A DNA stretch of 13,775 nt, taken from positions 1 to 13,775 of the forward strand of contig LJUI01000061.1 of NCBI GenBank assembly GCA_001303705.1, in the 5' to 3' direction. This document shows positions 8,379-11,767 of this stretch, piece by piece (within the stretch, counting starts at the first letter, position 1; every line of letters starts with the position of its first letter). The stretch comes from a candidate division TA06 bacterium SM23_40. GTDB taxonomy: Bacteria > LJUI01 > SM1-40. A program made the position numbers and the translations under genes. The notes under the pieces were generated by a model. It did not search any database and was not told the DNA's origin. It was given only the letters and a program-made list of their open reading frames with translations.

Positions 8379-8517
8379 TCGCCTACCCCGTCTCGCGTAA
8401 GAACATAGCGCAGACCTGCACCGTACGGGAAACCAGTGAGGGAAATAGATAACCGGGGCGGCCGCCGGGACGATGCCAGGATGCTTTTGCGGCAGTGATT
8501 GGAGCGTTCTGATTCCG

Positions 8518-9792
8518 ATGGACAAAGCCGATTACATCATCGCCTCCTATCTGCTGGAGACGGACGGAGATCTGGAAGAGGCAGCAGACGCGTTGGCCAC
8601 TGAGCAGTCAACGGGCACGTGGACGGACGTCCCCGGGGAAGGAGAGGCCCGGGAGCGACACGGCGCCAGGGTGGTCAAGGTGACCAAGCAGGGGGAGCGA
8701 GATCGTCCCTCTCTCCCCACGCGTTTCGCACCGCAAGGCGAGGCGCCGACTGCCAGGACCTACTCCTGGGGGGTCGCAGAGATCGCCTTCCCGCACATCA
8801 ACTTCGGGCCCCGCCTACCGAACCTCCTGTCGGCCGTCGCGGGGAACCTCTTCGAAATGGGCGCGTTCACGGCAGTCAAGCTCCTCGACCTCGAACTCCC
8901 GGATGAGTTCCTATCCCGGTTCCCCGGCCCCCGGTTCGGAATCGAGGGCACACGCGAGCTGCTCGGCGTGTTCGATCGCCCTCTCGCAGGGGCCATCGTC
9001 AAGCCCTGTGTTGGACTCGGCCCCCGTGAGCTCGCTGACATCGTCTATCAGGCAGCCCGGGGCGGCCTCGACTTCATAAAGGACGACGAACTCCTCGCCG
9101 ATCCAGCGTACAACCCCCTCGAGGACCGCGTCGACGCGGTGATGGAGGCTCTGGGTCGCGCGGAGCAGGAAACGGGCGAGAAGACGATGTATGCATTCAA
9201 TGTGACAGACCGCTCCGACAGGATTCTCGAACTCCATGACATCGTCGTCGATGGGGGCGGTACGTGCGTTATGCTCAACTACGTAACGGCCGGATTTGGC
9301 GCACTGCGCATGCTCGCCGAGCACACCAGAGTCCCGATCCACGCCCACCGCGACTTCTTCCCGGCGTTCACGAGGTCTCCCTCCCTGGGGTTGAGCACGA
9401 AGGTGTTCACGAAGCTGTCGAGAATTGCCGGCGCCGATCAGCTCCATATCGGTGCATTGGCCGGCAAGCTCTATGAGACCGACGATGAAGTACTCGAGAA
9501 CGTGGCAGCTTGCATGGCCGACCTCGACGGCTTGAAGCGAAGCATGCCAGTCTCCTCAGGAGGACAGCACGCGGGGAAGGTCCCCCTCACCTGGCGAAAG
9601 ATGGGCCACCCCGACTACCTCCATCTGAGCGGCGGAGGTGTCTTCGGCCATCCTGACGGGCCCGAGGCGGGAGCCCGCTCTATCCGTCAGGCGATCGCCG
9701 CAACGTCTGAGAGTCGAAGGCTCGAGGATGCAGCGCAGGACCAGGTGGAACTCCGGCGTGCGATCGAGTACTTCGGCGAGGTACTCTATTGA
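8518..9792 (+). CDS. RuBisCO large-chain family protein (RuBisCO-like, form III/IV type)
   Basis: A cytoplasmic protein of 424 residues with both RuBisCO domains. Using spinach numbering, I can match Glu60, Thr65 and Trp66 in TEQSTGTWT (Glu29, Thr34, Trp35), Asn123 (Asn110 in GNLFEM) and Lys175 (Lys162). The carbamate/metal triad is in GGLDFIKDDE (Lys188, Asp190, Glu191), and His294-Arg295 are in HAHRD (His277, Arg278). His327 and loop-6 Lys334 are in HIGALAGK (His310, Lys317), Ser379-Gly-Gly is in VSSGG (347-349), and the phosphate-site glycines are in SGGGVFGHP (371-379). Two positions differ: Thr173 is Ile160, and Lys177 of KPK is Cys164 (KPC). Text such as KPCVGLGPRE and ARGGLDF recalls form IV RuBisCO-like proteins, while the retained loop-6 lysine recalls form III. 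Carboxylase, enolase/isomerase or decarboxylase activity on a sugar phosphate are all possible. ATG 8518 gives the family N-terminus and has GGAG (8501-8504); ATG 8473, in frame, adds 15 atypical residues. The next gene starts 3 nt after the stop. Confidence 0.9.
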   Translation: MDKADYIIASYLLETDGDLEEAADALATEQSTGTWTDVPGEGEARERHGARVVKVTKQGERDRPSLPTRFAPQGEAPTARTYSWGVAEIAFPHINFGPRLPNLLSAVAGNLFEMGAFTAVKLLDLELPDEFLSRFPGPRFGIEGTRELLGVFDRPLAGAIVKPCVGLGPRELADIVYQAARGGLDFIKDDELLADPAYNPLEDRVDAVMEALGRAEQETGEKTMYAFNVTDRSDRILELHDIVVDGGGTCVMLNYVTAGFGALRMLAEHTRVPIHAHRDFFPAFTRSPSLGLSTKVFTKLSRIAGADQLHIGALAGKLYETDDEVLENVAACMADLDGLKRSMPVSSGGQHAGKVPLTWRKMGHPDYLHLSGGGVFGHPDGPEAGARSIRQAIAATSESRRLEDAAQDQVELRRAIEYFGEVLY

Positions 9793-9795
9793 GCC

Positions 9796-10335
9796 ATGGA
9801 GGACTCATTCCGCGTCAGAGGCCGCGACTCTCGACTCTCACCTGAGGATTTGATTAAGATCGAGCGCCATCCGATCCACGTGGTCCTCGACAACCTGAGG
9901 AGCGCGTTCAACGTCGGATCCATCTTCCGCACTGCCGACGCCGCCCTCGTCGAGAGACTGCATCTGTGCGGAATCACCGCCTATCCTCCACATCAGAAGC
10001 TCGACAAGACCGCGATGGGCGCGCTCGACTATGTGCCCTGGGAACATCATCCCGACACCCGAGACGCAGTCCTGAGCCTCAAGGATCGAGGCATGCCGAT
10101 CGTCTGCCTCGAACCCGCCGACATCAGCAAGCGCTTCTGGGAGATCGAATACCCCAGGCCCGTCTGTCTCGTCCTGGGCAACGAGGCGCTAGGAATATCG
10201 CGGGATGTGCTCCACCTCGCCGACCACCTGGTACACATCCCCATGCTCGGCTTCAAGAATTCGATCAATGTGGCCACTGCATTCGGGGTGGTCGTCTTCG
10301 AGGTGGTCAGGCAGTACCGGGGCGGACAATGCTAG
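9796..10335 (+). CDS. SpoU/TrmH-family RNA 2'-O-methyltransferase
   Basis: A 179-residue SPOUT-class enzyme that transfers methyl from SAM to a ribose 2'-hydroxyl in tRNA or rRNA (family knowledge). All three family motifs are visible: motif 1 DNLRSAFNVGSIFRTAD (32-48), motif 2 VLGNEALGIS (126-135), and motif 3 IPMLGFKNSINVATAFGV (148-165), which forms the trefoil knot and SAM pocket. KTAMGALDYVPWE (71-83) is also typical. There is no extra N-terminal RNA-binding domain, so it is a compact enzyme like TrmL or small TrmH proteins; the target nucleotide cannot be told. It starts 3 nt after the RuBisCO-family stop codon with only a weak ribosome site (GCGAGG, 14 nt upstream), so translation is probably coupled to that gene. 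The functional link between the two is unclear and may be only shared transcription. Its end faces the convergent minus-strand transcript. Confidence 0.9.
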   Translation: MEDSFRVRGRDSRLSPEDLIKIERHPIHVVLDNLRSAFNVGSIFRTADAALVERLHLCGITAYPPHQKLDKTAMGALDYVPWEHHPDTRDAVLSLKDRGMPIVCLEPADISKRFWEIEYPRPVCLVLGNEALGISRDVLHLADHLVHIPMLGFKNSINVATAFGVVVFEVVRQYRGGQC

Positions 10336-10673: not shown

Positions 10674-11573
10674 CTACCTGTTGCTATCCGTCCTTTCCGT
10701 GACCTCACCCCGGGCCCTTCTGCGGTACGCCTCACGCGTCAGAGCCATCTGATCCCCTTCGATCAGCGTGGGATCTTGCCCCGCGGCGAGAACGGCCAGA
10801 TAGATCTCCGCAGCCTTCGCCAGCACCTCTACCCTATCGAATGCCCGGGAGAGGGACTCGGCAACTGCCACAACGCCGTGCTTCTTCCAGAGGACGATGT
10901 CGAACTCCTCGAGAGCTTGCGCAGTGGCCTCGCCAAGCTCCAGAGAACCCGGGATCCGGTAGGGAATCGAGCCAACACCGGCAGGGAGGTGGAATCGCGT
11001 CTCCGGATGGAGGCGGAGGAGCCGATCGAGCACGACATCCGGCTTGTCGGCATAGGCCGGAAGATGGGTGAGCGCAATCAGATGCGTGGGGTGCGTATGG
11101 AGCACGGCCCTGAGCGAGGGCTTCGCCCGCTTCAGTACGGCGTGTATCGCAGCATGCGCAGGAAACTCGCTCGTCACCGGGGAGGCGCCCCAGAGGTGGA
11201 GGTATCCCTCCCCGGCCGGGAGGATCCGAATGAGCGCGACATTCTCCTCAGGTGCCACCGCCACATCACGCATTCGCCTGAGCGATCCCGTGATGAGAAG
11301 GAGATCTCCTGCCAGGTCGGGGGCCGGGACCGGCATCTTCCCGCCCGCTCCCCCGCCGGAGGCTCTACCGCCGCGAGATGGAGAGTCTGCACTATGGCGA
11401 CCCGTGGACGGGCCGCCACCCGAGGCGGCATCCGGGGAAAGAAGATCATCCCGAGTCCGACTCAACCTGACTGAGCAGTTACCTGCGTTCGCCTCCGCCC
11501 AGCCCCTCTCCGCAAGCCAGCGGGCAACGCGCGCCATCTCCTGGAGCTCTGGAATCGTGTCGATTGTCCGCAT
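10674..11573 (-). CDS. Rhamnulose-1-phosphate aldolase-like class II aldolase
   Basis: A zinc-dependent class II aldolase-family protein of 299 residues, closest in pattern to RhaD, which splits L-rhamnulose-1-phosphate into dihydroxyacetone phosphate and L-lactaldehyde (family knowledge). Seen: GNCSVRL (31-37), LLITGSLRRMRDV (92-104) for phosphate binding, GYLHLWG (123-129), TSEFPAH (134-140) with the catalytic Glu136, HTHPTHLIALTHL (159-171) with zinc ligands His159 and His161, AGVGSIPYRIPGS (198-210), and KKHGV (230-234) with His232 as third ligand. These match E. coli RhaD Glu117, His141, His143 and His212. Residues 46-85 form a Gly/Ser/Pro/Arg-rich low-complexity segment, which makes the protein longer than the 274-residue E. 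coli enzyme. ATG 11573 fits the family N-terminus and has AGAGG 11 nt upstream; the frame extends to GTG 11654, which is less likely. No other rhamnose genes are nearby. Related deoxy-ribulose-phosphate aldolases are an alternative. Confidence 0.85.
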   Translation of the reverse strand: MRTIDTIPELQEMARVARWLAERGWAEANAGNCSVRLSRTRDDLLSPDAASGGGPSTGRHSADSPSRGGRASGGGAGGKMPVPAPDLAGDLLLITGSLRRMRDVAVAPEENVALIRILPAGEGYLHLWGASPVTSEFPAHAAIHAVLKRAKPSLRAVLHTHPTHLIALTHLPAYADKPDVVLDRLLRLHPETRFHLPAGVGSIPYRIPGSLELGEATAQALEEFDIVLWKKHGVVAVAESLSRAFDRVEVLAKAAEIYLAVLAAGQDPTLIEGDQMALTREAYRRRARGEVTERTDSNR

Positions 11574-11767
11574 CAATGAGATAACCTCTTCGACACACTC
11601 ACTGGATACCCCACCCCGACGGCCACCCAACCTCAAGCCCACCGTCCTGACCACAGGCCACGACCAGACTCAGTCTACACAGACGGGCTCGAATCTGCAA
11701 GCAGCAAACCTGTGCTGAGAGGAAGATCTCGCGCCGCCCCCGGCACCAAGAAGGGCCATGAAAAGAC

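Follow-up and report, generated by a model that had tools for sequence, protein, structure and literature searches.

The question whether RuBisCO gave rise to the RuBisCO-like proteins (RLPs) or arose from them is an old one, and a gene in a contig of the candidate division TA06 bacterium SM23_40 bears on it, as a single catalytic residue separates its product from form III. The 13,775-nt stretch of DNA analysed here is referred to as the window, and the protein as the window RLP. The open reading frame matches PF00016 over the full domain length (242 bits) and PF02788 (51 bits), far beyond chance, and an in-frame ATG at 8473 would allow 15 extra residues upstream. The AlphaFold2 model of the protein is a confident prediction (mean pLDDT 94.5, pTM 0.93), and compared over its full length with known structures gave TM scores of 0.93 for 2qyg, 0.93 for 1tel, 0.90 for 3nwr and 0.86–0.87 for 2cwx. 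The Pfam matches, the two-domain large-subunit fold (TM 0.86–0.93) and the replacement of at least one conserved active-site residue (Lys177, here Cys164) provisionally place the protein within form IV/RLP in the broad sense, a group defined in addition by the lack of RuBP carboxylase/oxygenase activity.

To describe the active site, 20 columns (E60, T65, W66, N123, T173, K175, K177, K201, D203, E204, H294, R295, H327, K334, L335, S379, G380, G381, G403 and G404, in that order) were read on an alignment of the window RLP with form I/III RuBisCOs, MtnW, IV-Photo, OiaX/NonPhoto and the new relatives. The window RLP reads ETWNIKCKDEHRHKLSGGGG and the form I type rows (L013 and L019) read ETWNTKKKDEHRHKLSGGGG. 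A preliminary description of this DNA had proposed a nearly complete active site with two changes, and the alignment agrees, with 18 of the 20 tabulated positions kept and exactly Thr173 (Ile160) and Lys177 (Cys164) altered. The same description counted Thr173 to Ile as a departure from RuBisCO, which does not hold, as the form III rows (ETWNIKKKDEHRHKMSGGGG) also carry Ile (L011, L165 and L166) or Val (2CWX) at this position. As Ile is the common form III residue here, the change of Lys177 to Cys is the sole real catalytic break. True RuBisCOs do retain Lys177, as had been supposed, in every sampled form I/III row. The expectation that known RLPs lose more was likewise borne out; the window RLP retains more of these residues than the sampled rows of MtnW (2oek, GTWKIKMKDEHPLSVSAGGG), IV-Photo (EQWEVKNKDEHFIRMGGSGR), OiaX/NonPhoto (in most rows ETFNIKSKDEHRHKFSS(G/A)GG) and the DeepYkr type. 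Lys177 is given in the literature as an active-site residue, and the search found no study testing it in RLPs; the GOS survey describes it as variable among environmental homologs.

Table 1. Features of the RLP gene, its active-site positions and its neighbours in the window.
Feature	Position	Strand	Basis
RuBisCO-like protein gene	8518..9792	+	open frame, 424 aa + stop
EQSTGTW: E29, T34, W35 = Glu60, Thr65, Trp66 of RuBisCO	8602..8622	+	alignment columns
N110 = Asn123	8845..8847	+	alignment columns
IVKPC motif: I160 (Thr173), K162 (Lys175, kept), C164 (Lys177 to Cys)	8995..9009	+	alignment columns
KDDE: K188 (Lys201, putatively carbamylated), D190 and E191 (Mg ligands Asp203, Glu204)	9079..9090	+	alignment columns
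H277, R278 = His294, Arg295	9346..9351	+	alignment columns
H310 = His327; K317, L318 = loop 6 Lys334, Leu335	9445..9471	+	alignment columns
S347, G348, G349 = Ser379, Gly380, Gly381	9556..9564	+	alignment columns
G372, G373 = Gly403, Gly404	9631..9636	+	alignment columns
SpoU/TrmH-type RNA methylase	9796..10335	+	PF00588, 122 bits; start 3 nt past RLP stop
Rhamnulose-1-phosphate-aldolase-type class II aldolase	10674-11654	-	222 bits, cut-off 170; ~0.9 kb from RLP stop

The name KPC stem grade is introduced here for proteins that carry KPC (KPN in L003), keep the other catalytic residues and fall outside Photo, NonPhoto, MtnW and form III, and the window RLP belongs to it by residues and by position. 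In 192 genomes across other phyla the best matches to the window RLP were 57% (G014, KPN), 51% (G064, KPC) and 45% identical, and a Nitrospirota relative reached 58%. Of the best 80 loci from a scan of 84,980 genomes, seven encode KPC proteins (L026–L031 and L051) and the other 73 encode OiaX/NonPhoto proteins, in which the motif is KPS or KPN. Among 395 Nitrospirota genomes, ten gave matches, of which two had come up before and nine read as KPC; among 400 Chloroflexota genomes two did, one being the seed. The archaeal phylum searched was that of BMS3Abin16, which PMC6759336 assigns to Ca. Hydrothermarchaeota; here 13 of 23 genomes gave matches, ten reading as KPC and one (G610) as the KPK form III type. 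At least two archaeal genomes, G197 and G198, encode a KPC protein together with a separate KPK form III homolog (L164 and L165, respectively). One more KPC protein was present in G1176, a scan of viral contigs for relatives gave no match, and 4NAS has KAC rather than KPC. The preliminary description had suggested that the combination of a nearly intact site with KPC may mark a clade between forms III and IV. KPC as a unique marker is ruled out by its presence in several RLP lineages (L004, L006–L009, L012, L026–L031, L051 and others), with carriers in Nitrospirota, Ca. Hydrothermarchaeota and a few other bacterial lineages.

Three maximum-likelihood trees were built, from 56, 51 and 58 rows, and share one outline. 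Form III lies on one side, and a second branch consists of MtnW, DeepYkr-like and related rows; next come the Hydrothermarchaeota KPC clade and then a starred group formed by OiaX/NonPhoto, IV-Photo with an FCPU426-type KPC pair, a bacterial KPC clade and the window RLP. The exact branch of the window RLP inside that group is weakly resolved: support is 81/90 for joining the KPC and Photo side and 74/69 for joining only the bacterial KPC rows. Trees and residues together, the check proposed in the preliminary description, put it outside each of the subclades compared (form III, MtnW, IV-Photo and OiaX/NonPhoto). A single KPC clade was rejected in an AU test that constrained 21 named KPC-grade rows together (p-AU 1.3e-5, to be read as a guide, the rows having been chosen after inspection of earlier trees). 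The KPC proteins are therefore a grade and not a clade, with IV-Photo and IV-NonPhoto/OiaX branching from inside it; of the clade between forms III and IV that had been proposed, the intermediate position stands in all three trees and the single clade falls.

Unit-cost parsimony at position 177 placed Cys at the base of two groups, one of 37 rows and one of 14 rows on the MtnW side. On the assumption of form III rooting, this would most simply make Cys177 the state of early RLPs, from which the Asn of Photo and the Ser of NonPhoto derive. When L180 is included the deepest RLP node becomes C or K, which blurs the ancestral state. This protein (from G1142) lies on the RLP side and has KPK, but its residues 295 and 334 are Pro and Ser, respectively. 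The KPC grade has the appearance of a stem group that gave rise to most RLPs, and part of it may already be named IV-AMC, IV-Aful, IV-GOS or IV-EnvOnly.

Against curated equivalog models the window RLP scored below every cut-off, at 360 of 700 for OiaX (NF042437), 328 of 497 for form III (TIGR03326) and 242 of 514 for MtnW (TIGR03332), whereas the annotated OiaX in L106 scored 731 against the NF042437 cut-off of 700. Scores, residues and context rule out membership in OiaX, MtnW, IV-Photo and form III. The top model invites the reading that the window RLP is an OiaX-type beta-keto-acid phosphate decarboxylase in sugar-acid catabolism, and the OiaX/NonPhoto clade is near in the trees while 3nwr is among the best structural matches. 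That reading is nevertheless unlikely, as 360 bits is half of the cut-off, the W66F, L335F and G380S signature is absent, and a four-carbon acid sugar kinase, encoded up to 6 kb from the RLP in 68 of the 73 OiaX/NonPhoto loci among the best 80, has no counterpart at that distance in any of the 28 grade loci. The window also has no such kinase.

Gene context sets the KPC grade apart from the known families. Of 28 grade loci, 15 have genes resembling glcD/glcF no more than 6 kb from the RLP, compared with 1 of the 73 OiaX/NonPhoto loci among the best 80 (Fisher p 1.7e-9, uncorrected for kinship, which overstates the case because related loci are not independent), and fsa lies within the same distance in 5 of 28 versus 0 of those 73. 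In the Nitrospirota locus L148 the RLP is the first gene of an RLP-glcD-glcF-fsa run (gap of 2 nt, overlap of 4 nt, gap of 14 nt), with a like layout in L149 and L027. The locus in G1176 (L203) has RLP-glcD-glcF downstream of housekeeping genes. Among the archaea, a glcF-like gene abuts or overlaps the RLP as glcF-RLP in L156–L158 and L161–L163, and a divergent glcF-glcD pair lies beside it in L031 and L160. These differing layouts argue for repeated linkage. HdrA-like and FlpD genes precede the RLP-abutting glcF-like gene in L156 (10813-14357) and L158 (2112-5662), an arrangement that suggests an electron-transfer complex. The GlcD proteins linked to RLPs reach 480–535 bits, under the cut-off of 568, and thus need not act on glycolate. 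The linkage is absent from the grade members L026, L029, L030, L051, L147, L150 and L152–L154. Taken together, the genes beside the RLP in relatives indicate a different pathway from that of OiaX.

Other loci show arrangements of their own. L152, L153 and L154, from the Nitrospirota genomes G363, G377 and G335, have KPC and most other residues with Glu60, Thr65, Asn123 and Gly404 lost, and share a conserved gene order different from the glcD/glcF type. The KPC pair L030 and L111 has Glu60, Asn123, His327 and Lys334 changed, and its loci share a conserved gene order that includes PAP2, ureidoglycolate-lyase-like and M16 peptidase genes. On a Thiodictyon plasmid (L107, 6948-9269), the gene for an IV-Photo RLP comes immediately after idi and yjbQ within a photosynthesis gene cluster.

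The retention of 18 of 20 positions as in form I rows, with only Lys177 and Met/Leu335 differing from form III, would also fit a working RuBP carboxylase of form III-like type in which Cys is tolerated in place of Lys177. The Hydrothermarchaeota relatives score 383–388 bits against the form III model, above their OiaX scores, and AMP phosphorylase is present in the archaeal genomes searched. This possibility is nonetheless held to be remote. Lys177 is never replaced in the sampled form I/III rows, a phosphoribulokinase-family gene occurs in 0 of 9 genomes searched, and AMP phosphorylase is under the cut-off in the genome of the window and in the other bacterial relatives searched. In addition, at least two archaeal genomes with a KPC protein (G197 and G198) have the KPK form III homolog described above, which makes it improbable that the KPC protein serves them as RuBisCO. 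The genome of the window contains one RuBisCO homolog, gave no match to phosphoribulokinase (PF00485; the control was positive in 11 of 14 genomes) and gave a best AMP phosphorylase score of 240 bits versus a cut-off of 535. Neither route of RuBP supply was thus detected, and carbon fixation is unlikely, with single gene absences being soft in a bin that is 90% complete.

Two neighbours of the window RLP were considered as functional partners. The SpoU methylase is possibly co-transcribed with it, with no sign of a functional link. The class II aldolase carries a Gly/Ser/Pro-rich insert of roughly 45 residues near residues 70–115. Neither these two genes nor the O-methyltransferase of the window recurs beside other RLPs, and the pairs RLP-SpoU and RLP-class II aldolase are ruled out, as no other locus has them. 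The aldolase had offered a salvage-type reading, as in Rhodospirillum and Rhodopseudomonas the salvage of MTA involves RLPs as well as the class II aldolase Ald2 (PMC5893883). By this precedent the window RLP would be an isomerase or enolase of the MtnW/DeepYkr-like kind for 5-deoxy- or 5-methylthio-ribulose-1-phosphate, with the nearby aldolase as its companion. The proposal is judged improbable to a similar degree as the carboxylase, as the aldolase is on the opposite strand and beside no other grade RLP, the MtnW score is less than half of its cut-off, and the window RLP keeps Arg295 and His327, which are lost in MtnW and IKDDH (DeepYkr-like) rows.

Many of the groups from which the KPC relatives come are generally regarded as anaerobic, which weighs against the least probable alternative, an O2-requiring oxygenase of the D-hamamelose type that splits a keto-pentitol bisphosphate into two phosphorylated acids, the GlcD/GlcF of relatives then oxidising the resulting glycolate. 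The precedent of an RLP oxygenase that makes phosphoglycolate in the D-hamamelose pathway (Kim et al. 2018, as cited in PMC10173188) would suit GlcD/GlcF, and the window RLP retains loop 6 together with both charged-group sites, but no phosphatase gene was noticed among the linked genes of relatives and the window has no glcD/glcF.

The window RLP is probably best described as a KPC-stem-grade RLP that acts as a carbamate- and Mg-dependent enolising enzyme on a doubly charged sugar phosphate. The kept residues imply, as far as alignment can tell, a carbamate-Mg centre of the enolase type, a pair of sites for charged groups and a loop 6 that closes. The known substrates of MtnW and DeepYkr-like proteins have one phosphate. 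Rows of these two families (IKDDH for the latter) are without Arg295 and His327, both of which are present in the window RLP, and a substrate charged at both ends is therefore likely. In the proposed mechanism, K188 would be carbamylated and would bind Mg together with D190 and E191, and a phosphorylated 2-keto sugar or keto acid would chelate the metal. The carbamate could then abstract a proton (or CO2 could be lost) to give an enediolate, K162 would return the proton, and K317 of loop 6 would hold a carboxylate or phosphate. On general grounds, the loss of Lys177 leaves one positive charge fewer near K162, which may favour enolisation, isomerisation or decarboxylation over net carboxylation of RuBP. 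One known RLP reaction is the 1,3-isomerase of DeepYkr (PMC5893883). The gene context of the KPC grade suits none of the MtnW enolase, DeepYkr isomerase, OiaX decarboxylase or D-hamamelose oxygenase well.

In relatives, a 2-hydroxy acid on which a GlcD/GlcF-type dehydrogenase acts is probably connected with the substrate or product of the enolising enzyme, and in some a fructose-6-phosphate-aldolase-type enzyme may also be involved. This pathway is not simply transferable to the organism of the window, as glcD/glcF-like genes are absent beside the window RLP; its genome (G000) gave no GlcD match at E 1e-20 in the 90% complete bin, and its FSA gene is on another contig. More tentatively, the KPC grade could be both a remnant of the form III/RLP step, with one change between Lys177 and Cys and the rest intact, and the seat of an undescribed bisphosphate or phospho-carboxylate reaction tied to GlcD/GlcF in bacteria and archaea. 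The single-residue gap lets swaps at 177, in both directions, test directly which reaction appears, and the bacterial and archaeal runs of linked genes offer a concrete route to the physiological substrate.

Compared with known systems, the window RLP represents a genuine variant within the RLP family, no description of which was found in the literature searched, and its Hydrothermarchaeota homologs are already filed as form IV in the accessible part of PMC6759336. That part sorts RuBisCO homologs into III-a, III-b and IV and describes neither the KPC change nor a glcD/glcF linkage; one of the MAGs it covers, BMS3Abin16, yields the archaeal KPC-grade protein L051. The form III RuBisCO of Pyrococcus horikoshii (2cwx) has the fold in common with the window RLP, as well as Ile/Val at 173 and all tabulated catalytic residues except 177 and 335 (Met/Leu). 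Form III has Lys177, whereas the window RLP has Cys, branches apart (100/100) and resides in a genome without detected RuBP supply. OiaX, the 3-oxo-isoapionate-4-phosphate decarboxylase of NCBIfam, is the closest curated model, and OiaX/IV-NonPhoto proteins (3nwr; L032–L105, 41–49% identical to the window RLP) likewise keep Arg295, His327 and Lys334. Where they have W66F, L335F and G380S, the window RLP retains Trp66, Leu335 and Gly380, and it has neither their usual Ser or Asn at 177 nor their sugar-acid kinase neighbour. The IV-Photo proteins of Chlorobium (1tel) and R. palustris (RLP2, 2qyg) are among its best structural matches, and their clade groups with the FCPU426-type KPC proteins in the trees. 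Unlike the window RLP, they have Thr65, Asn123, Arg295, His327, Lys334, Ser379, Gly381 and Gly404 changed and Asn at 177, and none of the signature changes of this clade (T65Q, N123E, K177N, R295F and K334R) occurs in the window RLP. MtnW (2zvi, 2oek), the 2,3-diketo-5-methylthiopentyl-1-phosphate enolase, has the carbamate/Mg triad and the Lys175 column in common with the window RLP; it forms a separate starred branch in which Glu60, Asn123, Arg295, His327 and Lys334 are changed, all of which the window RLP retains.
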